This document shows, one piece after another, positions 38,669 through 54,128 of a stretch of DNA of 64,000 bases. Positions within the stretch are counted from its first letter, which is position 1. Every line of letters starts with the position of its first letter. A program made the translations under genes and the position numbers. This stretch comes from Candidatus Dormiibacterota bacterium (GTDB lineage: Bacteria > Chloroflexota > Dormibacteria > CF-121). The notes beneath the pieces are model-generated. The model worked only from the letters and a program-made list of their open reading frames with translations, made no database searches and was not told the origin of the DNA. The stretch spans positions 124,001 to 188,000 of the forward strand of contig DASZZN010000009.1 of assembly GCA_035544955.1 (NCBI GenBank), in the 5' to 3' direction.

Positions 38669-38743
38669 TGGGGCGTCGCCAAGTGGTAAGGCAGCGGACT
38701 TTGGATCCGCCACACGTAGGTTCGAATCCTACCGCCCCAGCCA
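38669..38743 (+). tRNA. tRNA-Gln (anticodon TTG)
   Basis: The 75-nt cloverleaf has acceptor arms TGGGGCG/CGCCCCA with the U1-A72 pair typical of tRNA-Gln, discriminator G and encoded CCA. Anticodon stem GCGGA/TCCGC encloses loop CTTTGGA, giving TTG (CAA codon). The T loop is GTTCGAATC. Its 3' end plus the next nine bases is repeated as the core of the downstream cassette elements, so this gene looks like the anchor of the array. Confidence 0.95.
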
Positions 38744-38752
38744 TCGCCTTCA
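38736..38752 (+). other. tRNA-borne attachment-like core (first core of the array)
   Basis: CCCAGCCATCGCCTTCA spans the last eight bases of tRNA-Gln (including CCA) and nine bases beyond. The same 17 bases recur exactly at the end of repeat copies at 40814, 46160, 50077 and 52503, and with one or two changes at several others. This is the layout of an integration core in a tRNA 3' end. The 23 bases that precede the core in the repeats are absent here. Confidence 0.75.
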
Positions 38753-38810
38753 GCAAGAGTCCTCGCTAGGTGCTCGTAACGGCCTGCCTACCCCAGCCGT
38801 TCTTAGCGGT

Positions 38811-39929
38811 GTGAAGCGGTTGCTCCTCGTCGGACTGGTAGTCGTTTCGGCCTGTGGCCCGGGGGTTAAATCTGGCCCAGCCGCCACCCAGGCCGCCAGT
38901 CCATCCGCGCCCTCCTCATCAGCCACTGCGGCCACCGCGGGCAACTCGCCAGGAAGTCTCGCGTGCAGGCTGCCGCTCGCGGATTTCGAGCAATCAGCCG
39001 ACTATTCGAGTGGGACGCTAAAGGCCGGCTTTGTTACGTTTCCGGGCGCCGCCTTCACACTCGATCCCAACGGTGCTTTCGAGGGCCCGGGGACCAACGG
39101 ACTGGTGAAGTCGGTGGTGAAGCCATATCTATACGGCGGCCCTGGGGTTGCCACCTTCACACGTCGATTCGGCCGGTGGCTACCTGCCGGTGTCGCCGCG
39201 GTCTCGCCTGACAGCGCCCACTATGCCTACGCCGAGTCCTATAACGACGCCAATGGTCCGCGGAGCCGGATTCACGTCGTGGATGTGGCTTCGGCGGCCG
39301 ACCGGGTTGTCTACGACCACGGCTTCTATGGGGTGATCGACTACGAGCCGGAGGGTATTTACCTTTTTGCCATCGGCTACGCGGACGCACCGAACTCGGG
39401 CCTGTGGCGGCTGGACCCGCAAGCTCGCTCCCTGACCCCTATTACTTCGCAGGATTTCACCGTTGACTACGTCGCCGGAGGCGCGGCCTGGTATAGCGAC
39501 TTAGCGCCCGGCGACCAGGCCCCTCCGAGCATGACCAATCCGATGGCTCGGGCCTTCTTCAAGGACCGCCTCGTGGTGATTGATCTCAAGAGTCGCATCG
39601 CGAGGCCCTGGTTTCGGCGGCCGGGTAAGGAGGTCCGTGCCATCGGCGTCGACGGCCTGGGGCATCCAATCGTGACCGTGGGCTCGCCAACGGACGCCGG
39701 AACGTCAACGTCCGAGGAGCTCTGGCTGGTTACCGGTCCCGAAATCGGGAAGCAGATCTATGCCGGCCCTGGTTCGAATTCTCCTGATTTTGTCGGCTTT
39801 GGTACTCCGCTGGCAGATAACCACGGACTCTGGTTTGGGACCAAGAAGGGAGTCTTCTTGTACACGCCCGATGCAAAGTCCCAAATGGTCTCGACCGCGG
39901 TCGGTGAGGTAGCCGGCCGCTGTTCGTGA
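38811..39929 (+). CDS. Lipoprotein, predicted beta-propeller (family 1, array unit 1)
   Basis: This 372-residue protein has a lipobox (LVGLVVVSAC), a Ser/Ala/Thr-rich linker, then a repeated-strand domain with WD/NHL-like phrases: VSPDSAHYAYAESYNDANGP, SGLWRLDPQARSLTPI, GLGHPIVTVGSPTDAG, HGLWFGTKKGVFLYTPDAK. It closely parallels proteins at 52772-53887 and 59990-61033 and the fragment at 42309-42890; all end with a Cys a few residues from the C-terminus (GRCS here). It is a probable surface-exposed propeller of unknown ligand. The start is GTG 38811, giving a proper signal peptide. Confidence 0.7.
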   Translation: MKRLLLVGLVVVSACGPGVKSGPAATQAASPSAPSSSATAATAGNSPGSLACRLPLADFEQSADYSSGTLKAGFVTFPGAAFTLDPNGAFEGPGTNGLVKSVVKPYLYGGPGVATFTRRFGRWLPAGVAAVSPDSAHYAYAESYNDANGPRSRIHVVDVASAADRVVYDHGFYGVIDYEPEGIYLFAIGYADAPNSGLWRLDPQARSLTPITSQDFTVDYVAGGAAWYSDLAPGDQAPPSMTNPMARAFFKDRLVVIDLKSRIARPWFRRPGKEVRAIGVDGLGHPIVTVGSPTDAGTSTSEELWLVTGPEIGKQIYAGPGSNSPDFVGFGTPLADNHGLWFGTKKGVFLYTPDAKSQMVSTAVGEVAGRCS

Positions 39930-40277
39930 GTCAACAGATCGTAGCCGTCGGCAGCAATCCGGTCAACGACCTATTCGTCGAGTCCGCAGCCGATGAGTCC
40001 CGAGAAGCCGCTCAAGTCTTAGGGCGATCGCAGGACCAACTTCATGAGCGAGCGTTGCCAAACCTGACCAATTGATCCAGCCATCGCCTTCAAGCGTTGG
40101 GCTGCCGGCGCTGCGTTACGCCCACGGCTGCTTACCTGGGTCAACACAAGCTGCGCTGGATTGCTCGGCCAAGACACGTTTCACGAGTGTGCGACCAACC
40201 ACGCTACGCGGCTCAGAGCACTCTACTATTGGACTAACTGAAGGCGCCATCGCTTTCCGCCGGCGGGCCGTTGTCAC
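39930..40277. other. Gene-free stretch holding repeat copy 1
   Basis: Apart from the array repeat at 40054-40093, nothing coding or structured was recognised in this 348-bp gap. Confidence 0.6.
40054..40093 (+). repeat. Array repeat copy 1
   Basis: GTTGCCAAACCTGACC, then AATTGATCCAG, then CCATCGCCTTCAA. One base differs from the tRNA core (TCCAG for CCCAG). Minus-strand frame continues GWINWSGLATLAHEV with LERLLG downstream. Confidence 0.93.
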
Positions 40278-40742
40278 GTGTTAGACACATCCTGGACGGC
40301 GCGTCGCTTTTTGCGCTCAATGGTGGGTCTGCGTAGCTCCCCGCCGGCCGACCAGACTCTGGCCCTGACACTTATCGAGAATGGTTGGATCGAGACCATG
40401 GCAATGGGCGCATGGATGCCGGCCTGGGCTGGCACCGGAGCGGCGTTGCTGTTCGTTGGCTATGCGATAAAGTCATGGGATCGCTCCTCCAAGACGTGGC
40501 CGCTAATAGTCGCCGCCGCCCCGATGGCAATCTCGGTCGTCGGCTTCATCATTCACATGTGTCGAGCAGCAATCGCAATCTCTGCAGGGCGCAACCTAGC
40601 ACTGACGAAGCAGCCGGGCGGTGCGTACGCCCAGGCCGTTTCTCGTCTGACCACGCCCACCCCGTGGGTGCTTGTCCCGCAAGTCGCACTTGGCATTGCC
40701 CTGGCCATCGTCGTCACGCGCCTAGCGCTTGCCAACCCCTAA
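40278..40742 (+). CDS. Small membrane protein (array unit 2)
   Basis: A 154-residue protein with three or four hydrophobic helices (WAGTGAALLFVGYAI, WPLIVAAAPMAISVVGFIIH, WVLVPQVALGIALAIVVTRL). The start is uncertain: GTG at 40278, or an ATG about 40 codons later before MGAWMPAWAG. It is the only gene in its cassette. No family recognised. Confidence 0.5.
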   Translation: MLDTSWTARRFLRSMVGLRSSPPADQTLALTLIENGWIETMAMGAWMPAWAGTGAALLFVGYAIKSWDRSSKTWPLIVAAAPMAISVVGFIIHMCRAAIAISAGRNLALTKQPGGAYAQAVSRLTTPTPWVLVPQVALGIALAIVVTRLALANP

Positions 40743-40813
40743 CGCGTTAAGACCGGTTCAATAAAATTCGACGCAACGCAGACGCGAAAGCTTCGCCCAC
40801 GTCGGCAAGCAAA

Positions 40814-40853
40814 GTTGCCAACTCTGACCAGTTGGCCCAGCCATCGCCTTCAA
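40814..40853 (+). repeat. Array repeat copy 2
   Basis: GTTGCCAACTCTGACC, AGTTGGCCCAG, CCATCGCCTTCAA, with a full match to the tRNA-Gln core. Minus-strand frame reads GWANWSELATLLADV then LRRILLNRS and a stop. Confidence 0.93.
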
Positions 40854-40880
40854 GTCGGGCCGCTCGCCAGCGCCGAGAAT

Positions 40881-42113
40881 CTAGCCAGAAGAGCCCTGTA
40901 CCAACCCGAGAAAGCTGCCGTTAAGGCCAAGGTCGATGATGTTCGTTGGGTTTGTTACGCGAATGAGCGCCAAACCGCCCGACACAAAGCTCGGTGGGCA
41001 ACCCGAGCAGGTCGGCTTAACGCTGCCTTTTTGGCCGATGACGGTTGCCGCATCGAGCCACCCTTGAGGCTGGAACTTCGCACCCAGCCCGATTCGCACA
41101 CCATCGCGGCTCCGGATCACGCTGGAGTCAAAGACGTAGCAGCAGTTGCTGTCCAGGTTGAAGGCTACGTGCGATGCGTCTGGTGACAGCGCAATTTCAC
41201 CGTAGGTAAAGCTATCGTTCGGATCTAAGGGCTTTAGGCTCCAGAGAGTGTGCCCACTGGCATCTCTGACGGTTGGATGTTTGGGGTCGTAGCAGACCAG
41301 CCAACCGTCGGGAAGATCCCCAAAAGACGGATTGCAATCGGAGCCCCCAATCGCGCTGCCGACCTGTCCTTGCATATCGAGGTGCGCGGCCGGGCCGAGC
41401 CATACCGTACCTTCCACGTAGCCGATATAAGCCATGTGTGTGTCAGTGGTTGCCACAGGCCCGATGCCATCCCAGCCGGCGACCGCCAGGAGAGCGGCCG
41501 GCGGTCCCTTCACTCCGCCTGACAGGGTCTTGGCCCAGATGGTCGTCGTTGACCCGCCCGCCGTCGCCAGCTCCAATTCTTCCCGTACGTCCCCAGGGAC
41601 GTGCTGGGGACAGCCCTGCGACGGATCTATCGTCGGCGAAACCAGGGGCGGCCAGGCGATGACTGAGGCAATCAGCTTCGTCCCATCGGGACTGACGGCG
41701 AACCAGGTGAGTTCCTGGCTGGTGAGAACGGGAAATCTTGCCACGATCTGGTTGTGGCCAGTAGCGCTGAGTCGATGAACTGCCCTATTCGCGTCCAGGT
41801 AGTAGACACTCCCCGCAGCGACCTGTGCCGTGGCGGCGACGAAACTGCCCTCACATCCGAGCGCCGGCGTTGGTGGTGGCGAGAACGTGGCTTGCGCGCG
41901 AATGCGACCGTCCAGGCCGAGGATGGCGACGGTGCTCGTGCAGTTGAGACCGCATGGCTGTCCCAGGCTTGCAGCAAAAAGGACCTCACGTGGCGAGCTG
42001 GACGGCGTCGGAGTTGTCGCTACGTGATCAGACGTACTTGAGGCTGTGGGGGAATTGCTGGCTTGACCGCACGCGGCAAGGGCGAGGCACGCCGACGCGA
42101 CGATGCGCTTCAT
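40881..42113 (-). CDS. Lipoprotein, predicted beta-propeller (family 2, array unit 3)
   Basis: A 410-residue protein with lipobox ACLALAAC, a Ser/Thr/Pro linker and repeated strands such as GSVYYLDANRAVHRLSATGH, TWFAVSPDGTKLIASVI, GEIALSPDASHVAFNLDSN and GLALIRVTNPTNIIDLG. It resembles the protein at 51129-52313 in layout (both MKR start, SPDG/SPDD repeats, 390-410 residues) and differs from family 1. Cys pairs (CGLNC, NCCY, CSGC) suggest disulfides outside the cell. The stop is 28 bp from repeat copy 2, and it is the only gene of its cassette. Confidence 0.7.
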   Translation of the reverse strand: MKRIVASACLALAACGQASNSPTASSTSDHVATTPTPSSSPREVLFAASLGQPCGLNCTSTVAILGLDGRIRAQATFSPPPTPALGCEGSFVAATAQVAAGSVYYLDANRAVHRLSATGHNQIVARFPVLTSQELTWFAVSPDGTKLIASVIAWPPLVSPTIDPSQGCPQHVPGDVREELELATAGGSTTTIWAKTLSGGVKGPPAALLAVAGWDGIGPVATTDTHMAYIGYVEGTVWLGPAAHLDMQGQVGSAIGGSDCNPSFGDLPDGWLVCYDPKHPTVRDASGHTLWSLKPLDPNDSFTYGEIALSPDASHVAFNLDSNCCYVFDSSVIRSRDGVRIGLGAKFQPQGWLDAATVIGQKGSVKPTCSGCPPSFVSGGLALIRVTNPTNIIDLGLNGSFLGLVQGSSG

Positions 42114-42210
42114 GTTGACATAACAGCGGGCGATGAGACGAGGTTACGCGAGGAGGGATCTTCCTCGATTGAGCGCCTGGGTGATTCGGCCATCAACATC
42201 CGCCAGGAGA

Positions 42211-42250
42211 GTTGCCAAACCTGACCAACTGACCCAGCCATTGCCTTCAA
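42211..42250 (+). repeat. Array repeat copy 3
   Basis: GTTGCCAAACCTGACC, AACTGACCCAG, CCATTGCCTTCAA. One base differs from the tRNA core. Minus-strand frame GWVSWSGLATLLADV then LNRGR. Confidence 0.92.
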
Positions 42251-42308
42251 GCTGAGGGCCTTCAGCCCCCTGAATAACTCGAGGTGTATGACAGGCGACG
42301 GTCTGATC

Positions 42309-42890
42309 TTACGAACATTGTCCAGCGACCTGACCAGTGAGTCCGGGAATCTTCTGGAAGCCACCGGCGGGCGTATAAACGAAGACGCCTCTTGAGCCGC
42401 TGAACCCGCCGCTGAACCAGACCGCATGCCCGTATCCCACGAGCGCCGATAAGTCAAAGCCGTCAGGACTCGATGAGACCCGTTGACCTGAACCCGGAGT
42501 TAACACCAACCACAGCTCCACGGAATCGGCGGACGATTGCCCGGAGGCGACCAGGACAAACGGGTGGCCGCTTTGGTCCAGGCCGAGAAGGTGGACGCTG
42601 TGGCCAGGCCGGTAGAACCAGACGACCGTCGCGCCTGACTTGAGGTCTTGCCGCATCACCTCGTCGGGAAGAAGCGTCCCCGAATAGGAGTCACGCAGGG
42701 CGCTCCCATCGGCGGGATCAACGGCGTTCACCCACACGGCGCCCGCCTGAGGCGATCCGAGGGCACTATCGCGGGCAACCAGCTGGACCGCGCCTGTTAT
42801 GGGGTCCAGGAGCCAGAGACCGGGAGGAGAGATGCCCTCGTAGGGGAGCTTCCGCAGATAGATCCCTTCGGTCCGATCATGCGTCCTTTG
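42309..42890 (-). pseudogene. 5'-truncated family 1 propeller lipoprotein
   Basis: The minus-strand frame encodes the C-terminal half of the family 1 propeller (PPGLWLLDPITGAVQLVA, GLDQSGHPFVLVASG, HAVWFSGGFSGSRGVFVYTP, QVAGQCS). Similarity continues upstream of the first possible start codon (GTG near 42737) as far as TEGIYLRKLPYEG near 42880, then stops, with an in-frame stop beyond. The N-terminal half and signal peptide are missing. It is a decayed copy inside the array, lying head to head with the gene at 42946. Confidence 0.72.
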
Positions 42891-42945
42891 TCGACAGCCG
42901 ACCCGAGTATGCTGCAGCCGCTAGGGCGCTGGTGCGCCGACGCCG

Positions 42946-43497
42946 TTGACGCCTAAGGAGGGATGCGACATCGCTGGGATCGACGGGCAGCCGGAGCCGG
43001 TAACTCCTGCTCGCAGGCCTAGGAAGCGTACCCGGCTTCGCGTTCTGCTCTTGGTTGTCGGCGCGCTCGTCGGAGTGGCGGTAGTTCTGGTCGTTGGAGG
43101 GTCCGTTTTTCAGGGGCTACTAGAGCGATCCGATGCTTCCTCAGGTTCTGGGGCTCCACTGCCCCAGAACTTCCCAGGGGACTTTCCTTTGTACCATCCA
43201 GCGAGCTTGAGCTTGATCGAGTCAAGCCCCGGCACGACGTTTGTTGGCAAGTGGCTAACCGTCGACAGCCAGGCGATGGTGGTTGCGTTCTATCGGCGGC
43301 ATCTGAACGACGGCGATTGGGAGGCCGTAGATGCACGCGTGGCCTCCGGCAGCACCCTGAAGGGCATGTATTTCCAGCGGAAGAGTGCTACCAACTACGT
43401 CGGAACGATCGTCGTCTCCTCTCAGGACCTCTACGGTGTGGTGACAATCTGGGTCTGCACGGCTGCGGACTCCAGTCCTCCAAACCCGTGTCCGTAA
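42946..43497 (+). CDS. Membrane-anchored extracellular protein (array unit 4)
   Basis: This 183-residue protein has one N-terminal transmembrane helix (LRVLLLVVGALVGVAVVLVV) after a basic stretch, then an outside domain beginning PLPQNFPGDFPLYHPASLSL. That phrase is like small Chloroflexota/actinobacterial exported proteins with a 'FP-DFP-YP-A' start. AMVVAFYRRHLNDGDWEAVD follows. A TTG start is used in this call, so the N-terminus is uncertain. Function unknown. Confidence 0.55.
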   Translation: MTPKEGCDIAGIDGQPEPVTPARRPRKRTRLRVLLLVVGALVGVAVVLVVGGSVFQGLLERSDASSGSGAPLPQNFPGDFPLYHPASLSLIESSPGTTFVGKWLTVDSQAMVVAFYRRHLNDGDWEAVDARVASGSTLKGMYFQRKSATNYVGTIVVSSQDLYGVVTIWVCTAADSSPPNPCP

Positions 43498-43669
43498 GAG
43501 TTGACACCGGAACGCGTAGAGCACACTCGGCACTACGGCAGCAGGCCAATCGTCGCGAGGCACGACGTACGCCGGAGCCGCCCAGACCTAAGAACACCGA
43601 TACTTCTGTCGGTGGGGGAGCGTTTGAAGTGGTTGAGGTGCCGAACTTGAGCGACACAGAGCCAGACTG

Positions 43670-44356
43670 ATGGTTAGCCGTTTGTGCCGGCGCCCGTCCG
43701 TCGTGGGTGGTTGGATCACACAAACCTGTGAGCGGCAGGATTTGGTTCGAGAATTCAATGGCCAGGAAAGGGCGCGCATCTCACGCATACGACTGAGGGC
43801 CAGTGTCATCGCGCTGGTGGGGGCCGTGGGCCTCACCAGCTGCACGTCGGGCGCTAGTGGAGTCGCACAGAGCCCTCGCCCGGAGCGGATTGCGCCTTCA
43901 GGCGCCCCGTACTCCTACGTCGTCCCAAAGGGTTTCGAGCCGGTCTTAGGTCATCAAGATCAACCGAATTCAGCGATCGAACACCAAACGTGGCTTGGTC
44001 CGACTGACCTCCCATCCGACAAGGACAACATTTTCGTAGGGGTTCATCCCTTGCCTCAGCCGATGACGGAGTCGGAGCTTGCGAAGGCGAGCGTTGAGAT
44101 TGACCACGGCAAGACTCAGTTCTGGCCGACTGCCGAATCGATAAGCAGCCAGGAACGGGTGACAGTAGGCGGAGCCGTAGGGTTCGCGTACCACATTACG
44201 GGTGCCATGAGCGGGACCACCAAGGTGGACCTTGATGCCTACATTCTCTTCCAAGACAAGACCGAACTGTTCCTCAATTGCCAGTGGATTCCGGCAGACA
44301 AAACCCAAGTGCTCGGAGGGTGTGAAGCGGTTAAGAGTTCGCTAGTTATCGCCTGA
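43670..44356 (+). CDS. Putative lipoprotein (array unit 4)
   Basis: A 228-residue frame with a possible lipobox (VIALVGAVGLTSC) after an unusually long basic N-region, so the true start may lie downstream. The mature domain (YSYVVPKGFEPV, FVGVHPLPQPMTESELAKAS, AGF-like VGGAVGFAYHITG, FLNCQWIPADKTQVLGGCEA) resembles small PsbP/LpqN-like lipoproteins. That similarity is weak. It shares its cassette with 42946-43497, same strand. Confidence 0.5.
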   Translation: MVSRLCRRPSVVGGWITQTCERQDLVREFNGQERARISRIRLRASVIALVGAVGLTSCTSGASGVAQSPRPERIAPSGAPYSYVVPKGFEPVLGHQDQPNSAIEHQTWLGPTDLPSDKDNIFVGVHPLPQPMTESELAKASVEIDHGKTQFWPTAESISSQERVTVGGAVGFAYHITGAMSGTTKVDLDAYILFQDKTELFLNCQWIPADKTQVLGGCEAVKSSLVIA

Positions 44357-44749
44357 GCGACGGCAATGCTACCGCCCGCGTTTCCGGTGGCCGTCGCGAA
44401 GCACGTGGCGACGGCTCGGGGCACATGAAAGTTAGCCGCTAGCTGGAACGGCCGGATCATTTAGGGGGGTTCGCCACTAAGTGCGGCCAGTGACTTTGCC
44501 AACCCCGACGAGTTGACCCAACCATCGCCTTCAATCAAAAGTGGGCGCAAATGGCCCCTAACCACAGGGGCCTACCTGTCAGGCTCTGACTTCGACTTTC
44601 GTTTACGGCATTTCGGCCTCCGGCAGAGAGCACGGTCCTCTCACGAGAGGGGGCAACGCCTTCGACAACCTTCCGTTCACGATTCATCAGAATCAGACCA
44701 AGCCGACGGCCAGCGATACTTTCCACCACAAGAATGCGTTGATAGCTGC
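44357..44749. other. Gene-poor stretch holding repeat copy 4
   Basis: It contains the array repeat at 44495-44534. From 44513 the frame of the next gene is open but the sequence looks non-coding (Arg/Ser/Gln-rich, no domain). Confidence 0.5.
44495..44534 (+). repeat. Array repeat copy 4
   Basis: Diverged copy: TTTGCCAACCCCGACG, AGTTGACCCAA, CCATCGCCTTCAA. Minus-strand frame GWVNSSGLAKSLAAL ends early, so its peptide conservation is weaker. Confidence 0.85.
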
Positions 44750-45250
44750 GTGGGGCCACTGCAAGAGGCGGCGGGCGAACGAATCTCCACGGAAGCCTCT
44801 CGGAAAGGAGTCGCACAGTTCTTGAGCCGAGGCCGGATTGGGGCGTCGCTGCTAGTGGGTGCATGCCTTATTGGTGTCGGAATGTTTCTGCCGTGGCAAC
44901 GAACGGTTGAACAGGGTGGCCAAACCTCGACCCAATCAGGTATCCATCTCGCCGGCACAACCCTGCTGATCATCGCGGCTGCGATGGCGGTCTTTGCCGC
45001 GGCCTATCTAAGGGGCCGCGGAGGCACCGGCCTTAAAGTCACCATGCTCTTCGTCGCGCTGGTCTGCCTTGTATCTGTCCTTCTCGCCGTCAACGCGATC
45101 GGCTTACCGGAGACCACAGATATCATCTCGTTCAGCTTCGACATCGGTTTTTACATGATCGCCTTGGGCACGGTGGTGCTGCTTGGTGGCACGGCTCTGG
45201 CTTTTAAAGAACACGAAACACGGAAGCCCGGTGCCGATGCGACTCCCTGA
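44750..45250 (+). CDS. Four-helix membrane protein (array unit 5)
   Basis: A 166-residue protein from GTG 44750 with four hydrophobic helices (GASLLVGACLIGVGMFLPW, TTLLIIAAAMAVFAAAYL, VTMLFVALVCLVSVLLAV, IGFYMIALGTVVLLGGTAL). GMFLPW after helix 1 is like small Trp-associated membrane proteins of Actinobacteria. The start is uncertain because the open frame extends upstream. It overlaps the next gene. Confidence 0.5.
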   Translation: MGPLQEAAGERISTEASRKGVAQFLSRGRIGASLLVGACLIGVGMFLPWQRTVEQGGQTSTQSGIHLAGTTLLIIAAAMAVFAAAYLRGRGGTGLKVTMLFVALVCLVSVLLAVNAIGLPETTDIISFSFDIGFYMIALGTVVLLGGTALAFKEHETRKPGADATP

Positions 45251-45992
45251 GGGCTGGGGGCCGGGCATTGCCGGCGTCGCCGGTGCGGTCCTGCTTGTGC
45301 TCGGTGTTGTGTTCTTCAGGGGACCAGTCGACGCCTACGTAGCCTCGGTGGACAGCTTTTCGTGGAACTGTGACTCCTGTGAGCATGTACTCAGCGTGAG
45401 CCGAACAGCAAACTGGACCGAGTCATGGTCGTTTACCGGCGCCATGAAACCGAATACGCCGCCCCTGGCTCGTGGCGACCAGGTCAAGATCGAAAGCACC
45501 CCTCACCGGCTCGTGGCGTTTACCGCGCTCAACCCTGCGGGGGGCGGTGAACGATACGTCACCGATCAGGAATTTCTACCGCCATTCGGACCTGCGACGG
45601 GTCTTGTCGGCTGGGGCAGTCTCATCCTCGGAGCGCTGCTGCTCGGTATCGCGATCTGGTCCTTCGTGCGGCGGCAGGCGCAATTGGACCGTAGGCTTTC
45701 GGCCCAAAGTCTTGTCGGCGGACTGATCTGCCTGGCTCCCGCGCTGTATTTCTTTGCGCTGTTTTCTGGCCGGCTCGACGCCGTCGATTTCCTCGGCCTG
45801 AGCTTTGTGGTGTGGTTGGTTGCGGCCGGCACGGCGATCGTGCTGGGCATTATGGCTCGGCGGAAAGAACATGATCAGGTGGCCACGCTAATGGCCACCG
45901 CTGGTCTCGGCCTCTCGATTGGTCTGACGGTCGGCTGGCCGGTAGTGTTCATGGCCGTTCTGTCGGCCGCTTTTAGTGCAGGCGGGGGGTAG
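45237..45992 (+). CDS. DUF3592-like membrane protein (array unit 5)
   Basis: This 251-residue protein has one N-terminal helix, an outside domain with CDSCEHVLSVS and a W-x-E-S-W-S-F segment, then four C-terminal helices (LVGWGSLILGALLLGIAIW, LVGGLICLAPALYFFALF, FVVWLVAAGTAIVLGIMA, IGLTVGWPVVFMAVLSAAF). The layout resembles DUF3592-type proteins, with low certainty. The ATG overlaps the upstream gene by 14 bp, so they are coupled. Confidence 0.5.
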   Translation: MRLPEGWGPGIAGVAGAVLLVLGVVFFRGPVDAYVASVDSFSWNCDSCEHVLSVSRTANWTESWSFTGAMKPNTPPLARGDQVKIESTPHRLVAFTALNPAGGGERYVTDQEFLPPFGPATGLVGWGSLILGALLLGIAIWSFVRRQAQLDRRLSAQSLVGGLICLAPALYFFALFSGRLDAVDFLGLSFVVWLVAAGTAIVLGIMARRKEHDQVATLMATAGLGLSIGLTVGWPVVFMAVLSAAFSAGGG

Positions 45993-46159
45993 AGGCCTCG
46001 ATTCGCGCTGCACGAGCTCGGCGACTGAGGCGAAGCTTTAGTCGGGGCTCATGGCAGATCTCCCGCGTAGGTTTCTAGTCTGGCCGTATGCGGCGGCCGC
46101 TTCGACAAGAAAGCGCGCAGCCAATGCGGCCAGGGAGGCCCCCGAAATCAGACGCAAGC

Positions 46160-46602: not shown

Positions 46603-46664
46603 CTCGCTGAAAATACCGTATTCTCCGGTCTCCGCCGGAGCCGGGTCCTAAGTCCTGCTTTGGA

Positions 46665-46877: not shown

Positions 46878-47208
46878 AGGTCTTCGCAGCGTGAAGGATC
46901 TTAGCCACCAGGCCCCATGACGGCTCACGGGGCTCCTCGATATGCTGGTTCTTGAAAAAGCCTGGCATGTCGTGAATCCATGCCGCCAGCGCCTCCAGGT
47001 AGCGGTCGAGCGTCGGATTTTCCCAATCGTCTTCCGACACGCGCAGATCGTCTCGAAGCGCATGGACAAAAGCGGCCAAATCTGTTCGCGTCTGAACAGC
47101 CTCTTCACGCGCGAGTAGCTCCATGTTAGGCAAAGTCATCATCTCCCGAAGCTGAATCGTAGCTGGATTGAGAGGCCGTCGCTGATCGTTGTCTAAAGGC
47201 TGGCCCAA
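46870..47208 (-). CDS. DUF7660-like protein (array unit 7)
   Basis: This 112-residue protein's C-terminal 75 residues read FVHALRDDLRVSEDDWENPT, LDRYLEALAAWIHDMPGFFK and PSWGLVAKILHAAKTYE. That W-ENPTL-x-x-[FY]-LEALAAW pattern is the DUF7660 type, small acidic proteins seen in immunity-like and integron-like contexts. A shorter start at an internal Met is possible. It overlaps the 70-residue frame downstream by 8 bp. Confidence 0.65.
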   Translation of the reverse strand: MGQPLDNDQRRPLNPATIQLREMMTLPNMELLAREEAVQTRTDLAAFVHALRDDLRVSEDDWENPTLDRYLEALAAWIHDMPGFFKNQHIEEPREPSWGLVAKILHAAKTYE

Positions 47209-47309
47209 AGGTATGCGATCTCATTGGGCGTGGTCATTCTGAGCTGACGTCAACGCCCAGGAGACGATGCAGAGAGACAGCGACTGCTTCGGTGACCTCG
47301 GCTAACAGA

Positions 47310-47349
47310 GTTGCGAACTCTGACCAATTGACCCAGCCTTCGCCTTCAA
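47310..47349 (+). repeat. Array repeat copy 7
   Basis: GTTGCGAACTCTGACC, AATTGACCCAG, CCTTCGCCTTCAA. Minus-strand frame GWVNWSEFATLLAEV then LHRLLGVDV. Confidence 0.92.
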
Positions 47350-47422
47350 CCGACCTCGGCGTCTGCCGGCGAGGTGAAGGTACAGTCTGCCGTTGCAGAA
47401 CCGAGATATAGGCAGGCCGCCC

Positions 47423-48445
47423 CTACGGCCTGCCGGTCAGGTAGCGGCGCGGGTTGTCGACAAGTAATTTGGAAATCGTGTCCTGCTTCACGCCGGCGGC
47501 CCGGAGCCGGGGAACGATCGCCTTCAACACGTGAGAGTACCCGTTGCCGCCGAAGCGGATAAGCTGGAGTTTGGTGCAGACATCCTGCGAGAGGAGAATC
47601 TGGGCTGACCACCCGGCTTCGAGCAGCCGGAGGAGCGCATCGAGCCGCTGGTCGTCGGTCGGCTCTTTTGAATCCGGCCCGAAGACCTCTTCCGAGCCCA
47701 GCGTGTCGAAGCTGAGCCAGGCGCCGCGGACCGCCAGCGAGCAGTGGTAATCGTAGTCGAGCTGCTCGTCCATGTGGCTCAGCGCCACCCGCCGAAGATC
47801 GACGCCCTCCGCCTGCAGGATGTCGAGGATACGTGGGCCTTCGCGATGGAAGATCGCGGGATGGACATTGATCGACACCCCGGTCTTAAAATGCGCGCGG
47901 GCCGCAGCGCGCAGTACCTTGACCTCCTCGGGCAGGATGGGTGAGGAGGTGCCCAGCTCGCCTAGCAGGCCGGCGCGCACGCTGGTCCCGTTGATGCCGA
48001 CCAGGATCGCCCCAACGAAGCGGGCCGCAAGCTCGTCGACGGTCATTCCGGCGACCCAGGGCGGATGCGCGAACGCCCGGTAGACGCCAGTCCCCACAAC
48101 GATCTGGACGGCACTGCGCTGCGAGATGCGCCGCAACGCCTCTGGCTTTGGATCGAGGCCGTCGACCGTCATGTCGATCACGCTGTGCCCGCCGGCTTGC
48201 CCGAAGGCGCGCAGCTCCTCGGCCGCCGCGTCCTCGTCGTCGATGAGTAGGTTGTCGCGCGACTCATAGGGGTTCTGGACCCAGGTCGCCCGCGACTGCA
48301 CCGTGACCGGCGTCTGTGCCAGGGCCCGGCGCTCGTCGGTCGCGGGTTCGTTCCACAGCCCACGCAGATCGATCAGGAGGTGCTCATGCCCAAGGGTGAC
48401 CCCGAGCGTCTCCGGCTCGATCGGACCGCAAACCGTCTGGATCAT
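47423..48445 (-). CDS. Phosphotriesterase-family hydrolase (PHP/lactonase-like, array unit 8)
   Basis: A 340-residue amidohydrolase-fold enzyme. GVTLGHEHLLIDLRG provides the H-x-H metal ligands, GLLGELGTSSPILPEEVKVL carries Glu where true phosphotriesterases have carboxylated Lys (as in E. coli Php), then SINVHPAIFHREG, VALSHMDEQLDY and LLSQDVCTKLQL (metal Asp). This points to a lactonase or esterase rather than a pesticide hydrolase. The start at ATG 48445 matches the family N-terminus. It is the sole gene in its cassette. Confidence 0.9.
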   Translation of the reverse strand: MIQTVCGPIEPETLGVTLGHEHLLIDLRGLWNEPATDERRALAQTPVTVQSRATWVQNPYESRDNLLIDDEDAAAEELRAFGQAGGHSVIDMTVDGLDPKPEALRRISQRSAVQIVVGTGVYRAFAHPPWVAGMTVDELAARFVGAILVGINGTSVRAGLLGELGTSSPILPEEVKVLRAAARAHFKTGVSINVHPAIFHREGPRILDILQAEGVDLRRVALSHMDEQLDYDYHCSLAVRGAWLSFDTLGSEEVFGPDSKEPTDDQRLDALLRLLEAGWSAQILLSQDVCTKLQLIRFGGNGYSHVLKAIVPRLRAAGVKQDTISKLLVDNPRRYLTGRP

Positions 48446-48835
48446 GCTGACGTGGTCGGATCCACCGGCGACCAGCATAGGGCGCCGTGGAGCCCCGCCT
48501 TCGGCCCGCCGTTAGCTGGCCCTGTTGCTGTGAGAAGACGATTCAGTCCGGCGGCGAAATCACGGCCCAGATGGGCTAAGCGAGTTGCCAAATCTGACCA
48601 ATTGACCCAGGCATCGCCTTCGACTTACCTGCGTCGCATGAGCGACGCCGCGTCACGAATCTGGTTTACATTTTCCAGGGAACCATTTTCGAGGCAGCTC
48701 GGTCGAAATATGGTCCCCGCTCCAGGCCAGTCCGCACCGTCAATCCCATTGTCAACGGACATGCGTCCAGCCGCGTGGCTCCCCGCGACGGCGGGTGCCT
48801 ATCTCCTCCCTTCTCGCAGCGCTCGCCCAGCTAAT
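48446..48835. other. Gene-free stretch holding repeat copy 8
   Basis: Only the array repeat at 48584-48623 was recognised in this ~390-bp gap. Small open frames here have no coding character. Confidence 0.6.
48584..48623 (+). repeat. Array repeat copy 8
   Basis: GTTGCCAAATCTGACC, AATTGACCCAG, GCATCGCCTTCGA. Minus-strand frame AWVNWSDLATRLAHL then LNRLLTATG. Confidence 0.92.
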
Positions 48836-49210
48836 TCAGACACCGAGCAGTCCGAGCTCATTCCCCTCTAAGTCGCTTATGACGGCAAACCGGGCGGCCG
48901 CAGCTGGAAGCTTCGTCGGGGGCACCACCGTCGAAGCTCCGAGCGAACGCGCTCGTGCGAGGGCGGCTTCGAGGTTGTCAACCTGGACATAGAACGTCAG
49001 CCCGGGCGAACCTGACGGCGACGGCATGATTCCGCCCGGGATCCCGGCGCCTGGCGTCGCGTAGCGGTGCTCAGGGTTGGTATCGATCATCGAGTAATTC
49101 AAGAGCTCGCTCTCGGGGCCCAGCTCCCAAGCGAAGAGCGCGGAATAGAACGATTTCTGGCGCGTCAAGTCCCGCGCGCGGATTTCGAAATGAACTACAG
49201 GGTTACCCAT
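48836..49210 (-). CDS. VOC-superfamily (glyoxalase-like) protein (array unit 9)
   Basis: A 124-residue single-module VOC protein: MGNPVVHFEIRARDLTRQKS, FYSALFAWELGPES, GGIMPSPSGSPGLTFYVQVD, LEAALARARSLGAST and FAVISDLEGNELGLLGV. His and Glu metal positions (VHFEI, GNELGLL) are kept. Members include glyoxalases, dioxygenases and drug-binding proteins; the substrate is unknown. AGGAG lies 9-12 nt upstream of ATG 49210. Confidence 0.88.
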   Translation of the reverse strand: MGNPVVHFEIRARDLTRQKSFYSALFAWELGPESELLNYSMIDTNPEHRYATPGAGIPGGIMPSPSGSPGLTFYVQVDNLEAALARARSLGASTVVPPTKLPAAAARFAVISDLEGNELGLLGV

Positions 49211-49390
49211 GCTTCTGATCTCCTCTCTTGCCTCTCCCTTCATCGCGATGGCGGATGGCACGCCGGTTGGCTATTAAGGATACGTGGCTCACTCTTGGTT
49301 GTCCGGCGGCGTAGGCGCATGATGGCATTGCTATCAAGCGGAAGCCGCCTCAGTAACAGACGAAGGCTGGCGTCAACGCTCCCCAAGAGA

Positions 49391-49431
49391 GTTGCTAATT
49401 CCGACCAATTGACCCAGCCAATCGCCTTCAG
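49391..49431 (+). repeat. Array repeat copy 9 (one inserted base)
   Basis: GTTGCTAATTCCGACC, AATTGACCCAG, CCAATCGCCTTCAGC with an extra A in the core. Minus-strand frame GWVNWSELATLLGSV then LRRLP. Confidence 0.9.
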
Positions 49432-49501
49432 CCAGCCACGGATACCATGGGGGTGCAACTGGCCGGCGCGATGAAACGGTAGGCGCGCAGCTTCGCCCCG
49501 G

Positions 49502-49933
49502 TCAGAACACCCGACGGCCCTCTCGGTATCGATCAAGCAGCCCCGGATAGTCCATAAAAACCTCGACCTCGGCCTCATTGATCTCTTCGATCAGGTCTGT
49601 AATGGTTATTTGCGCCCCAGTTATGGGCTGAGCGTCTGGGCCTACGAGCGTGAGGCCAAGGGAACTGACCCGCCGTCTGTACTCTGTGAGCTTCGCCTGA
49701 TCCGTGGCTGCTTCGCCGCTCCAGGACACCGCCTCGGCGTACAGCCTGATGATTGGCTTGAACTCGGCGTATCGATCATTAGGTAAGAAATGGCCTCCAT
49801 ACACGCCCATTGATTCATCCGCCCACTCCAAGAGTGTCTCGCCGATGTCGACGGCATTGGCCAAGAGGTGAAAGCTAGGGAGTTGAGCTGGATTGTGCAC
49901 CGTCTGTAAGGGTCTCACAGGAATTAATGACAC
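49502..49933 (-). CDS. Hypothetical protein (array unit 10)
   Basis: This 143-residue soluble protein has HNPAQLPSFHLLANAVDIGE at the N-terminus, a mixed alpha/beta middle (FKPIIRLYAEAVSWSGEAAT) and a late acidic helix (TITDLIEEINEAEVEVFMDY). No family recognised. It is alone in its cassette, with the stop 71 bp from copy 9. Confidence 0.5.
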   Translation of the reverse strand: MSLIPVRPLQTVHNPAQLPSFHLLANAVDIGETLLEWADESMGVYGGHFLPNDRYAEFKPIIRLYAEAVSWSGEAATDQAKLTEYRRRVSSLGLTLVGPDAQPITGAQITITDLIEEINEAEVEVFMDYPGLLDRYREGRRVF

Positions 49934-50076
49934 GAACGGGCGCTGGTCTGGACTCGCCCTTCGGTGCTCGGGTATGGCTTAGGCCTTCACCACCGCAAGC
50001 TTGAGGGTCGACGACGCAAGGAACCAGGAGGCGATGCAGGGCGCCGACGACCTCTTGAGTGACAGCGGCCATTAGA

Positions 50077-50116
50077 GTTGCCAAACCTGACCAATTGACC
50101 CAGCCATCGCCTTCAA
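50077..50116 (+). repeat. Array repeat copy 10
   Basis: GTTGCCAAACCTGACC, AATTGACCCAG, CCATCGCCTTCAA, the best match to the consensus and a full match to the tRNA core. The stop codon of the minus-strand gene at 50113-50892 lies inside it. Minus-strand frame GWVNWSGLATLMAAV then LHRLLV. Confidence 0.95.
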
Positions 50117-50892
50117 CCAGACTTGCCGGCGCTGCGAATGGTCTCCAACTCAGCAAGAACGAGAAATAGGATGCCTGCGCCCACCGCTAGCGTCCCCCAG
50201 ACTTGGCCCACGGCTCCGGGGGCGTCGGGGAACACGACTGATGCCGCGCCGACGAAGATTGATGCCGCTCCGGCGCTCCAAGCCGAAATCCTCCAGCCCT
50301 TTGTTTTCAAGCAAGCGAGCATGCCAACCAGCACGATGGCAATAGCGGCGGCCGCCATCTCCGCGAAACGGTCGGCATGGTGAGGCGGGCCGACGAACTG
50401 ACGCGCCTGCGCAAGCATGTTTATGGCGTAGGCAACAGCCGGGACGGCCCCGACTATGCAGACTGCAGCCAGCGAGGCGGTAGGACCAGCCCCCCGCTTG
50501 AAGAATTCTCGGCGGGCTGGGTGGAGAACAACCAGGATCGCCACCGCGGCCAGGAAGAGTAGCGACGCCTGCAGGGGCTCTTGCCGACTACCGATCAGCG
50601 CCGTGATAAGGAAGGCAAGAATCCCGAGGACGGCCTGCTGCACCCCAGCGATCCTGCGTGCGGGCGACCGCAGCTGGACCAGCAACCCTACAGTAATGAT
50701 GATCCCGGCGAGCGCGCCATGACTGAGCTCGCTGACCGGGGTGGACACCCCGAAGGGTTTTTCGAACCACCCGATCACGAGCACGGTTAGCCCGAAGAAA
50801 CCGATTCCAAACGCCAGTGACAGGACGGTAGCCCAGAGGAAGAATGCGATGCGACGGACGGAACTGGGTGCGGGGGCTACCGGGGCGCCCAC
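50113..50892 (-). CDS. Eight-helix membrane protein (array unit 11)
   Basis: A 259-residue polytopic protein with helices such as IAFFLWATVLSLAFGIGFFG, GALAGIIITVGLLVQL, VQQAVLGILAFLITALIG and VWGTLAVGAGILFLVLAELE. No transporter motifs seen. Its TGA falls inside repeat copy 10, the closest gene-repeat junction in the array. Confidence 0.6.
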   Translation of the reverse strand: MGAPVAPAPSSVRRIAFFLWATVLSLAFGIGFFGLTVLVIGWFEKPFGVSTPVSELSHGALAGIIITVGLLVQLRSPARRIAGVQQAVLGILAFLITALIGSRQEPLQASLLFLAAVAILVVLHPARREFFKRGAGPTASLAAVCIVGAVPAVAYAINMLAQARQFVGPPHHADRFAEMAAAAIAIVLVGMLACLKTKGWRISAWSAGAASIFVGAASVVFPDAPGAVGQVWGTLAVGAGILFLVLAELETIRSAGKSG

Positions 50893-51048
50893 GTGGTGCT
50901 TCCGCCTCCGTGGGATCGCCCAAGGGAATTCGCGCGACTGCTATCTGCCTTTCGGCACATCGGTATCGGTCGCATCTTGGCGCTCAAGAATAGCCGGACG
51001 AGACGGTTCACGGACGGTTCGACCCGGTGGCAGAGGCGGGCCAACCGA

Positions 51049-51088
51049 GTTGCTAACTCTGACCAGTTGACCCAGCTCTGCCCCTAAC
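51049..51088 (+). repeat. Array repeat copy 11 (core degenerate)
   Basis: GTTGCTAACTCTGACC, AGTTGACCCAG, then CTCTGCCCCTAAC in place of the tRNA-like end. Minus-strand frame SWVNWSELATRLARL then VNRLV. Confidence 0.87.
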
Positions 51089-51128
51089 CGCCAATGGGCG
51101 ACACCAGCAAGCTTGCGGTAATCAAACC

Positions 51129-52313
51129 TCAGCCCAGGTTTCCGGGTAACACCCCGACCATGGCGCCCGGCGTATCCATTGGACTGACGGCCCCACTCGA
51201 AGTGTCAAAGAGAGCCAGTTTTCCTTGTGGTGTCTGAAAAACCAAATGCCTCGAATCTACCCAACCCTGTGCAGTACCCCCGACGTTCGTGGATACCCGT
51301 TTCCCCGACAGGTCGACGAGAGTGATGGATTCTCCACCGCCGCAGCCACCATCTGGCTGCTGGTGACGAAAAACAGTGGCGATTTGCCGGCCATCTGGGG
51401 ATACCGGACCGCCAACTCCACAGACGTCGCTTGGGATAGTACGGCTACTTCCATCCCAGCTCTCGAGCAGCGACTGATGGTGGCTGTCGCCGTAGTGCAC
51501 CTCGCATTCGATCCCTGCTGGAGTCGGGAGCCCAAAGGAGACTGCACCCGAAGGCCCGGAGCAAATGGTAGCGAGCCGCGTTGCAGTGGTCGCGTCGGCG
51601 ACGTGATATTCGTAAGCCCGATAGGCGCAGATGTCGCACGGGTTCTGGCCATATGGACCGCCGGCTACGCCGATGACAAGCTGACCAGCGTGCCAGCCAA
51701 TCGGCCACTCGACCGCGCTCCGCGATTCGAAGAGGTCAACGTGGTGGCCACCACCTAATAAGTCCTCGACATATAGTCGCGTATGGATGCTCCCCATTGA
51801 GACGCTCGGGTAATCAACGACGGTCACGGCAATGCGTTGATCGTCAGGACTAACCGCAAACGCCGCGTGAGTCAGTGTTCCGGCCGGCAGCGTATGTGCA
51901 AGTCCAGCCGATCCGCTGAGCGCCACGAAGCGGACGGCTGATTCTCCGTCCAAATAATAGACGCGATTGTTGGACGCGCTCACTTGTGGGAGGGACGTCG
52001 GATGTCCGTAGCCATCGTCGGTGAAATGGATCTCGGACCAACTCCGGTTTGCCGCAGTCGCCGTCCGGATAGTTTTGCCGGTGAGGTCCACCAACGAAAC
52101 GGTGTAGCTTGGTGGCGTCGGGTACATGTCTAAGCCACTGATGATCACGGCGAGCGGCGTGATCTGTACCTGACTTGTAGTCGGCGTGGGACTCGAGCCA
52201 GGCGCCGTCAGGCTAGGGCCTTGCGTTTTTGCGGGAGGTGACGCCGTCTGGGCGCCGCAGCCGCTCGTTAGGACGGACAGCCCAAGGAGCGAGACGACGA
52301 TTACCCGCTTCAC
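51129..52313 (-). CDS. Lipoprotein, predicted beta-propeller (family 2, array unit 12)
   Basis: A 394-residue protein with lipobox LSVLTSGC, a Pro/Ser/Thr linker and propeller-like strands: YTVSLVDLTGKTIRTATAAN, NRVYYLDGESAVRFVALSG, AFAVSPDDQRIAVTVVDYP, GGPVSPDGRQIATVFRHQQP, RHLVFQTPQGKLALFDTSSG. It resembles 40881-42113 in plan. The region with CDICAYRAYEY and other Cys may form disulfides. It is a likely surface protein. Confidence 0.7.
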   Translation of the reverse strand: MKRVIVVSLLGLSVLTSGCGAQTASPPAKTQGPSLTAPGSSPTPTTSQVQITPLAVIISGLDMYPTPPSYTVSLVDLTGKTIRTATAANRSWSEIHFTDDGYGHPTSLPQVSASNNRVYYLDGESAVRFVALSGSAGLAHTLPAGTLTHAAFAVSPDDQRIAVTVVDYPSVSMGSIHTRLYVEDLLGGGHHVDLFESRSAVEWPIGWHAGQLVIGVAGGPYGQNPCDICAYRAYEYHVADATTATRLATICSGPSGAVSFGLPTPAGIECEVHYGDSHHQSLLESWDGSSRTIPSDVCGVGGPVSPDGRQIATVFRHQQPDGGCGGGESITLVDLSGKRVSTNVGGTAQGWVDSRHLVFQTPQGKLALFDTSSGAVSPMDTPGAMVGVLPGNLG

Positions 52314-52771
52314 TGCCTGCTTAACGAATCAACTAGGGGTTTGGTTTCGAGGCCATCGATATCCTGCCCGCTCGTGAGACCGAGGAAATCGGTCCCATAA
52401 GCGACCGCGTCTCACCGTTTCGTGCGGTTCGGCTGAAGAGGCATAAGCACCGCGAGGCGGTTAATGACCGCCATGAGTGCGCCATCTACGTCTGTCACCA
52501 GAGTTGCCAAACCGGACCAATTGACCCAGCCATCGCCTTCAATACGGGAAGATCTCGTGAGGACCTCGCTCAACCGCGATTACGACGCTCAGATGTCGCA
52601 TGACGGAGCATGTTGCGAGTGGCGTCATGGGCCCAGACGTCGACTGGAGAAGCCCCGCCTGCGGTTCCGGCGACAGGACGACAACTGCAAGCGGCCGAAA
52701 CCGTGGGTCGATGAATGCTTCGGCGGCTCCGAGTGCGTAACCCGGTTGCTGCAGTTGGCGTTACCCTTCGC
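52314..52771. other. Gene-free stretch holding repeat copy 12
   Basis: Divergent promoter region between two propeller lipoprotein genes. Beyond the repeat at 52503-52542 no feature was recognised in these ~460 bp. Confidence 0.55.
52503..52542 (+). repeat. Array repeat copy 12
   Basis: GTTGCCAAACCGGACC, AATTGACCCAG, CCATCGCCTTCAA, with a full match to the tRNA core. Minus-strand frame GWVNWSGLATLVTDV then INRLAVLM. Confidence 0.93.
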
Positions 52772-53887
52772 GTGAGGCGGCTGATCCCGGCTGCTATCTT
52801 GCCGTTGATGCTCGCGGCATGTGGTAGCAAAGCCCATCTGGCGGCTGCATCGCATCCCTCGCACTCGGCCAGTCAACCTAGTGCCACCGTTACCGCCACC
52901 GCCGCGGCCACCACGACGCCAGAGACGGCTAGTCCCTCGCCGGGCAACCCCAATTGCAGGTTACCGGTGGCTATCGACCAGGTTGGCGGTTTCGTGGCCT
53001 TCCCGGGCGCTGCTTTCACATCCGATCCTGCCAGCAAGCTAACCTTCGACGGCGCGACAAACACCTTCCGCACCGAGGCCTCGCCGGTGTTGCACGGACC
53101 GAATTCCGGCAGCACTCTCAGCTACGACCCGGGCCACGGTCGCTGGCTCCCGGTCGACACCACGGCCGTATCGCCGGACGGAGCCAGTTATGCCTATGCG
53201 CAGGGCATTGTGCCGCCCGACGCGCAGGGACCGATCGTTCCCAGTGGATCCCACATTCACGTAGTCGCCATCAAGACCGGCGCCGACCGCATCGTGTACA
53301 GCGGTCAGCTGCTCGCAGTCGTCGGATGGCGGCGCGAGGGAATCTATCTCACTCATCCCTGCGCTGAGGGCTGCGGCGAAGCGGGTGGCCTATGGCTACT
53401 CGATCCGTCCGCTGGTTCGCTGCAGCAAGTCGTTCCGCTGCCGACGCCAAATCCTGAACGTGTAGGGGCCGTGACCTGGTCGGGCTTGGGTGGCGGGGCG
53501 GCCTGGGCAGTTACGGGCGATCCCAGCAATCCGAATTCGCCGCCTGATCGGCTTCTCCGCCATGACCTGAACGGCGGACCCCAGGAGCCCTGGTTTACGA
53601 AAGCGGGCAGCCAGATGAGTTTGCTTACCGTTGCCGGGACCCAGCCGATCGTGTCCGTATATACGGCTGCCGAGACGGACGTTTGGCTGGTGACGGGGCG
53701 AAACCAGGCCCAGCTTTTGGTTGCCACGCCTGCTTCCGAAACCAACGGCCTACTCTATCCCACCGTTGCCAGGCGGGATGCTAATGGGATCTGGTTTGGC
53801 AGCTCCTCGGGCGTTTTTCTGTGGGCCAACGGTTCCATCAATGAGCTTTACAGCCAACGGGCCTCGCCTGCCGGCGTTTGCAGCTAG
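52772..53887 (+). CDS. Lipoprotein, predicted beta-propeller (family 1, array unit 13)
   Basis: This 371-residue paralogue of 38811-39929 has lipobox LPLMLAAC, a long Thr/Ala/Ser linker and shared blocks GGFVAFPGAAFTSDP, GRWLPVDTTAVSPDGASYAY, HIHVVAIKTGADRIVYSGQ, GGLWLLDPSAGSLQQVVPL, ANGIWFGSSSGVFLWANGS and a C-terminal GVCS. The GTG at 52772 gives the signal peptide; longer frames add non-signal sequence. It is the last cassette of the array. Confidence 0.72.
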   Translation: MRRLIPAAILPLMLAACGSKAHLAAASHPSHSASQPSATVTATAAATTTPETASPSPGNPNCRLPVAIDQVGGFVAFPGAAFTSDPASKLTFDGATNTFRTEASPVLHGPNSGSTLSYDPGHGRWLPVDTTAVSPDGASYAYAQGIVPPDAQGPIVPSGSHIHVVAIKTGADRIVYSGQLLAVVGWRREGIYLTHPCAEGCGEAGGLWLLDPSAGSLQQVVPLPTPNPERVGAVTWSGLGGGAAWAVTGDPSNPNSPPDRLLRHDLNGGPQEPWFTKAGSQMSLLTVAGTQPIVSVYTAAETDVWLVTGRNQAQLLVATPASETNGLLYPTVARRDANGIWFGSSSGVFLWANGSINELYSQRASPAGVCS

Positions 53888-54128
53888 TGGCCTCTCAGGA
53901 GAGCATCGACCGAGCTTGCAAACGGACGACGGTCCATTCCGGCCCGTCGCCCAGGTCCTGAAGTTTGCGCGGGAAGCCGTTCGATAGCTTGCGCTAGTTC
54001 TCCGATCACATTGGCAACTTCAGTTGCTAACCCTGACCAATTGACCCAGCTCCCTCGGAATCCAGTAACCGGTCAAGTTGGCGGCGATTCGACCGCGACC
54101 ACGGAGCGCTCGGGCGATGGGTGATCTC
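53888..54128. other. Right border of the array
   Basis: Apart from repeat copy 13 no feature was recognised. A decayed GMC oxidoreductase tail begins just beyond. Confidence 0.5.
54023..54051 (+). repeat. Array repeat copy 13 (right border, core lost)
   Basis: GTTGCTAACCCTGACC, AATTGACCCAG, then CTCCCTCGGAATCC, so the tRNA-like core is gone after CCCAGC. Minus-strand frame SWVNWSGLATEVANV then IERLP. This is the last copy seen. Confidence 0.87.

Follow-up and report, generated by a model that had tools for sequence, protein, structure and literature searches.

An array of gene cassettes behind tRNA-Gln

We analysed an array of thirteen small gene cassettes that follows a tRNA-Gln gene in a soil Chloroflexota bacterium (3.67 Mb in 52 contigs, G000 in our genome comparison). 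The window, a stretch of 64,000 nucleotides on contig C9 (GCA_035544955.1, DASZZN010000009.1), provides all positions given below. The tRNA-Gln(UUG) gene (38669-38743, plus strand), found by ARAGORN and as an Rfam tRNA, would be the primary attachment site. A preliminary description of this DNA had listed thirteen copies of a repeat (at 40054, 40814, 42211, 44495, 46160, 46753, 47310, 48584, 49391, 50077, 51049, 52503 and 54023), all in one orientation; every copy was recovered in that orientation, with a spacing of 557-2284 bp, which is also the range of unit lengths. With a 28-base consensus and up to three mismatches, 12 of the 13 copies and nothing else in the window were matched (0.00 matches expected from 100 shuffles); the copy at 46160 is more divergent and lies above three mismatches. 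As claimed, the last 17 bp of the repeat are identical to the end of tRNA-Gln and the DNA just after it: CCCAGCCATCGCCTTCA, composed of the last eight tRNA bases and nine more, stands at 38736-38752. The proposed length of about 40 bp proved too short, since the left side extends further, with 79-85 bp conserved in codon phase.

The site junction is CCCAGC/CATCGCC (the slash marks the joint). Within each cassette, the right end is formed by the left half of the site (GTTGCC...CCCAGC) and the left end by the right half (CATCGCC...). Hereafter b designates the cassette start (CATCGCCTTCA), P the cassette end (GTTGCC...GACCCAGC plus about 50 bp before it) and B the 3′ half of tRNA-Gln (GGTTCGAATCCTACCGCCCCAGC, 38719-38741). 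The right part b was absent or changed in some copies, for example at 51076 and 54050. At the tRNA itself, the junction B/b (38736-38752, plus strand) may represent an intact attB-like site.

The GC content of the array is 0.60-0.63 against 0.64-0.68 in the surroundings. Single genes occupy 11 of the 13 units, on both strands, and the right-hand gap from the last gene to the unit boundary, about 100-220 bp in every unit, leaves room for the site. Sites (P half, core and right half) are given on the minus strand, on which the P half codes, as described below. Cassette 1 (38742-40081, 1340 bp; P half at its right end, site 1 with b at 40003-40092) encodes a beta-propeller-like secreted protein (38811-39929, plus), cassette 2 (40082-40841, 760 bp; site 2, 40763-40852) a membrane protein (40278-40742, plus) and cassette 3 (40842-42238, 1397 bp; site 3, 42160-42249) an unknown protein (40881-42113, minus). 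Cassette 4 (42239-44522, 2284 bp; site 4, 44444-44533) contains a paralogue fragment of the cassette 1 gene (42309-42737, minus) and two further genes (43051-43497 and 44063-44356, plus), and cassette 5 (44523-46187, 1665 bp; site 5, 46109-46198) two genes for membrane proteins (44822-45250 and 45237-45992, plus). Cassette 6 (46188-46780, 593 bp; site 6, 46702-46791, right half CATTGTCCACT) carries one gene (46252-46602, minus) and is 83% identical to a cassette of genome G014 over 393 bp from the exact core. The next three encode a DUF7660 protein (46870-47208, minus; PF24693, E 6.5e-27) in cassette 7 (46781-47337, 557 bp; site 7, 47259-47348), a phosphotriesterase family protein (47423-48478, minus; PF02126, E 6.8e-68) in cassette 8 (47338-48611, 1274 bp; site 8, 48533-48622) and a glyoxalase-like protein (48836-49261, minus; PF18029) in cassette 9 (48612-49418, 807 bp; site 9, 49340-49429, right half CAATCGCCTTC). 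Cassettes 10 (49419-50104, 686 bp; site 10, 50026-50115) and 12 (51077-52530, 1454 bp; site 12, 52452-52541) each hold an unknown gene (49502-49933 and 51129-52313, both minus). Between them, cassette 11 (50105-51076, 972 bp) encodes a membrane protein (50113-50892, minus) and ends in site 11 (50998-51087), the right half of which is TCTGCCCCTAA and not b. The last, cassette 13 (52531-54050, 1520 bp), carries a paralogue of the cassette 1 gene (52715-53887, plus; BLASTP 33%, E 1.7e-44); its site 13 (53972-54061), with the right half TCCCTCGGAAT and not b, is the right end of the array. Three related propeller-like secreted proteins are found among the cassette proteins, the majority of which had no Pfam family match. 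PADLOC gave no match for ten cassette proteins, for which reason a defence island was rejected. In Rfam searches, the tRNA was the only known RNA matched.

Cassettes recur as units with exact ends

Comparison with related genomes showed that cassettes reappear in other settings. A unit of 777/777 bp is common to G004 and G012 at 97.4% identity, with different neighbours on both sides. Similarly, G004 and G011 have 3,181 bp in common at 99.2%, starting exactly after CCCAGC, the G011 copy behind tRNA-Gln and the G004 copy internal to an array. Window cassette 1, located at tRNA-Gln(UUG), was found end to end at 83% in G005, there at tRNA-Gln(CUG). In G008 it comes second, separated from the tRNA by a unit that matches a G012 unit at 97.6% identity over 825 bp. 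The breakpoints of shared units fall exactly at CCCAGC/CATCGCC. Since units recur in this manner, the cassette unit can be defined as b...P, with a CATCGCC start and a CCCAGC end, and judged from these comparisons the array is one of mobile cassettes. The original proposal, that small cassettes were captured one after another by site-specific insertion at the 3′ end of tRNA-Gln, is supported, and cassette content varies among relatives.

Short and numerous repeats, with some P tails swapped between similar cassettes, might also be produced by homologous recombination between repeats or belong to an ordinary intergenic family of repetitive extragenic palindromic (REP) type. This we consider very improbable. 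In unrelated neighbourhoods the breakpoints coincide exactly with the core, one side being 97-99% identical and the other showing no identity; the left half codes for protein, and all G000 copies stand at tRNA-Gln or a tRNA-Gln 3′ fragment and are not scattered as a dispersed repeat would be. As for the observations named beforehand as decisive against cassette capture, cassette order was found to differ in relatives, sites were confined to tRNA-Gln or its fragments, and the repeat is not a REP family.

Some cassettes that resemble each other over the rest of their length diverge only in the final ~86 to ~186 bp (L024 735-2123 versus L030 1397; L032 6081-7092 versus L039 3404-4412), and look as if the P tail had been exchanged as a module. 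In L031, a minus-strand cassette (sites 9634-4561), 99.2% identical to a G011 cassette, has lost its P tail by simple deletion and is joined to CCATCGCCTTCA. Some cassettes (L025 7756; L026 118 and 1830; L037 9089; L038 9455) have a left end of another class, CATTGTCYTGTCTCAAGACATCCCGGACGC..., in which about 50 bp past the junction are conserved and contain an inverted repeat.

The P half encodes the tail of a serine recombinase

The left 79-85 bp of the repeat encode the C-terminal tail (about 30 amino acids, WVNWSGLATLLADV...RLL) of a large serine recombinase (LSR), and nearly all sites read [EGD]GWVNWSGLATLLADV....L.RLL on the minus strand. Codon phase was examined in 66 distinct copies over 51 bases outside the 28-base core. 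Information was highest at second positions (0.58 bits), followed by first (0.19) and third (0.08; permutation p 5e-5), and DNA upstream of the tail was flat (0.03-0.05). Stops numbered 12 in the tail frame, compared with 49 and 73 in the two remaining frames of the minus strand. In the clearest diverged pair of tails from one cassette (window cassette 1 and its G005 counterpart), 7 synonymous base changes accompanied 2 changed residues; other related tails had more replacements, hence the constraint is moderate. Moreover, in G004 an LSR remnant runs in frame into the tail of the 777-bp unit, and in G012 the same tail adjoins b. In our reading, the left half of each repeat thus corresponds to the 3′ end of an LSR gene, the remainder of which the cassettes do not carry.

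Two other coding schemes were rejected. A stand-alone short peptide or C-terminal tag does not agree with the missing upstream start codon and the random stops before the core, and plus-strand coding does not agree with the order of conservation by codon position, which fits the minus strand.

No serine recombinase and no integron-type integrase was matched in the window part of contig C9, which bears out the earlier remark that the window holds no recombinase. An integron, or a variant of one with a tyrosine integrase and attC sites, would account for one-gene cassettes, a common site in one orientation, an array beside a fixed primary site and cassette exchange. Nevertheless, TIGR02249 (IntI) exceeded its cut-off in 0 of 15 genus genomes and not in the window either, the paired RYYYAAC/GTTRRRY boxes were absent on reading of the 13 sites, as the preliminary description had noted in setting the array apart from classical integrons, the site appears to be the coding 3′ end of a serine recombinase, and genes lie on both strands. 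We regard this explanation as extremely unlikely. An attC-like hairpin was also sought: single-strand folds of the 13 sites gave no common structure, and coding accounts for the palindrome noticed by eye in one of the copies.

An LSR element with ends of the same kind

Two further site clusters are present in G000, one on C40 beside a 23-base tRNA-Gln-like 3′ fragment and one on C14 beside tRNA-Gln(ctg), where three more sites adjoin an LSR gene. The protein (502 residues) contains Resolvase, Recombinase and Zn-ribbon domains (PF00239+PF07508+PF13408), and its best NCBIfam match is CcrB, which scores 103 bits against a cut-off of 900. The gene ends inside tRNA-Gln(ctg), from which the final residues are read (...SENGW/GARIRT). 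A copy 91% identical in G004 ends at a tRNA-Gln 3′ fragment. Both elements (4.1 kb in G000 and 6.1 kb in G004) carry a Replic_Relax protein and a P half at the far end; the element ends are P and P′ halves of the same kind, the LSR P′ end being CATTTTCACGATTTGC.

Joining the element ends closes the LSR frame, in G000 as ...SENGW/VNWSGLATLLDQLGGDLLPGCLGSLSLSRSRPPL (...SENGW/VNWSGLATLL..) and in G004 as ...SENGW/VDWSGLATVVSHIAREMSVSLDRALRTVFMAI (...SENGW/VDWSGLATVV..), each followed by a stop. The empty site left in G000 is tRNA-Gln/CATCGCCTTCA, identical to the tRNA junction of the window, indicating that the LSR entered a site already carrying b. Of the four insertions of an LSR or an LSR derivative at tRNA-Gln or a fragment of it, three are followed by a P/b right end. 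The likely array enzyme is hence a CcrB-like LSR, on the strength of these sequence relations, and not a tyrosine integrase. Neither the tyrosine recombinase implied by the preliminary description nor its suggestion of a wholly separate capture system is supported; the related enzyme is an LSR whose gene 3′ end forms the left half of the repeat.

The array could also have arisen from full-size LSR elements that accumulated in tandem and decayed, so that each cassette would be the remnant of an autonomous island that once had its own recombinase, with neither a dedicated cassette stage nor mobilisation in trans. LSR remnants do exist (a C-terminus at the tRNA in L034, a 67-aa fragment in L030), and in Dehalococcoides 15 of 31 tandem islands are without the integration module (PMC3146451). 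Yet cassettes start with b (CATCGCCTTCA) and not with the LSR P′ end (CATTTTCACGATTTGC), no LSR remnant was found in the 13 window cassettes, which measure 0.56-2.3 kb and mostly hold one intact gene, and cassettes recur intact in other genomes at up to 99% identity. Accretion of this kind is therefore unlikely, although less so than the alternatives weighed above.

In another family of the class, the reading frames of related serine recombinases likewise continue into tRNA 3′ ends (L169 1592-1683, tRNA-Ser; L168 3547-3702/17518-17674), the L168 element spanning about 14 kb between tRNA-like repeats. For related LSRs in other families of the class, a query with the 31-aa tail found no repeated copies, and no site array was seen near them.

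Sites in other genomes

Among 61 related genomes, sites were found in 14 of the 15 listed genus genomes and in one genome of a sister genus, and in none of the rest. A scan of GTDB r220 gave 21 stretches with sites, all from Chloroflexi metagenome-assembled genomes (MAGs). The site pattern had no match in IMG/VR, on which ground a viral origin was rejected. Within the genus, sites are located at tRNA-Gln genes or ~23-bp tRNA-Gln 3′ fragments. The left flank of tRNA-Gln(UUG) is conserved (78-88%), and the DNA after this gene differs in each genome, nearly always behind the common CATCGCCTTCA. One tRNA-Gln of G003 runs CCCAGC/TCC, with no encoded CCA, and so do some tRNA-Gln genes of family f4, suggesting that the CA of a cassette completes the tRNA CCA.

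Fragments of 23-25 bp (GGTTCGAATCC...CCCAGC), with no rest of the tRNA and followed by cassettes, were seen at L002 10869, L030 11487 and L033 6377, and further such fragments at L036 5533, L044 9001 and L045 6766. Two fragment loci appear common to pairs of genomes (G000/G003 and G001/G010), with differing cassettes. In the sister genus, contig G015:C181 (L048, L129) shows three tRNA-Gln 3′ ends at distances of 16-19 kb, which suggests that larger islands have stacked up at this tRNA.

To the right of the array, the window contains a PIN-domain protein with a small upstream gene (54460-55097), probably a VapBC-type toxin-antitoxin pair, and then, by eye, a repeat-rich secreted protein resembling ice-binding DUF3494 proteins followed by a kelch-like repeat protein (55364-57817).

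A model for cassette insertion

We consider it quite probable that the array consists of tandem recombinase-less mini-elements, inserted and exchanged at tRNA-Gln by a CcrB-like LSR. Starting from the unit boundaries, the recurrence of units, the LSR ends of the same kind and the coding tail, all read directly, we infer the remaining steps. An excised cassette circle (P/b) would recombine with the tRNA junction (B/b) to give B/b-cassette-P/b. The newcomer's own b would rebuild the target at the tRNA and supply the CA of the tRNA CCA end; as it brings this b itself, insertion could repeat and the array would grow at its tRNA end. Crossover would probably take place at a dinucleotide within CCCAGC. 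The LSR, located in G000 at the other tRNA-Gln, would be able to act in trans. Its tail would be lost on integration of the element at the tRNA and gained on circularisation or beside a P half, and this gain and loss may control direction or activity.

A bolder version, which we put forward tentatively as the less likely case, takes the system as a serine-recombinase counterpart of integrons, in which each cassette site is an alternative LSR 3′ end. Cassettes would form a library of C-terminal tails, integration at the tRNA would strip the tail, cassette joining or circle closure would restore one, and the cassette joined would set activity or direction.

Several points weigh against insertion of mini-elements by the LSR. 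All evidence comes from MAG assemblies, with many contigs breaking near sites, and no circle, excision or transfer was observed. The reaction attB x P/b is not the standard attB x attP reaction of serine integrases, and b, conserved over only ~11 bp, is short for a serine-integrase half-site. Some similar cassettes carry different P tails, for which simple cassette exchange gives no explanation. Finally, a full LSR of the C14/G004 kind was present in only 2 of 15 genus genomes and any serine recombinase domain in only 4 of 15, so that most arrays are orphans in these data; incomplete MAGs or a roaming enzyme may account for this scarcity.

Comparison with known systems

The nearest known systems are the Dehalococcoides ssrA islands and staphylococcal cassette chromosome (SCC) elements, and the one-gene format is integron-like. 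Like the array, ssrA islands (DsiB) occur in Chloroflexota and stand in tandem at a tRNA-like gene, the 3′ end of which recurs as a short direct repeat; a CcrB-like serine recombinase lies beside the target, its 3′ end overlapping attL, and about half of the islands are without recombinase (PMC3146451). Here too, the LSR 3′ end overlaps the attachment site, and tandem units lie between direct repeats derived from the 3′ end of the target gene. However, the target is tRNA-Gln and not ssrA, and their islands are larger (about 12 kb, vcr islands), have an integration module of six genes, a second serine recombinase among them, and do not form arrays of ~1-kb one-gene cassettes (PMC3146451). Of that module (DsiA/RecF/ParB/Mom) no counterpart was seen beside our LSR, the neighbour being Replic_Relax, the other module genes not having been searched for individually. 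Coding constraint on the repeat, found here, was not shown for ssrA islands (PMC3146451).

With SCC (CcrAB/CcrC) the array has in common a serine recombinase, CcrB being its nearest curated family, though below the cut-off. SCC also forms tandem composite arrays at the 3′ end of one gene. Its target is rlmH, in contrast to tRNA-Gln here, and its elements are large and ccr-carrying and are not known to form arrays of one-gene recombinase-less cassettes. Recombinase-less att-flanked elements likewise accumulate at tRNA genes in the accretion of cis-mobilizable and integrative and mobilizable elements (CIME/IME) and in tycheposons; to our knowledge, their units are much larger, mostly rely on tyrosine integrases and form no long series of one-gene cassettes. 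Integrons and clusters of attC sites lacking integrases (CALINs) resemble the array in their mostly one-gene cassettes, one shared site and orientation, a fixed primary site, orphan arrays and exchange among relatives. They differ by a tyrosine integrase and a folded single-strand attC, whereas here we find an LSR, a double-strand protein-coding half-site, a tRNA as primary site and genes on both strands. An attachment site inside a gene, so that integration alters the C-terminus, is known from BPs integration-dependent immunity phages (PMC4557955) and SSV-type integrases; there it concerns a repressor or a tyrosine integrase, here a serine recombinase tail that is also carried by many separate cassettes.

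We found no description of serine-recombinase integron-like arrays in the open-licence papers searched. As far as these show, what is new is the reduction to a one-gene format, together with the evidence that the shared half-site is under coding constraint. Serine recombinases in many cases need no host factors, and a system that rebuilds its own target would for this reason interest genome engineers. For the Dehalococcoides islands, it was suggested in 2011 that the recombinase may be whole only when the element is circular or adjoins an island that provides the 3′ gene fragment (PMC3146451). Our comparative evidence bears on the question left open there, whether a neighbouring island completes a recombinase gene that spans its own attachment site; with sites, recombinase and tail all short and defined, the question is directly testable. 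Cassette capture is usually seen as the work of integrons, which use tyrosine integrases and single-stranded sites that fold; in the present case the same architecture is met with a serine recombinase at a tRNA gene, and association of a one-gene array with such an enzyme would mean that cassette capture arose more than once.

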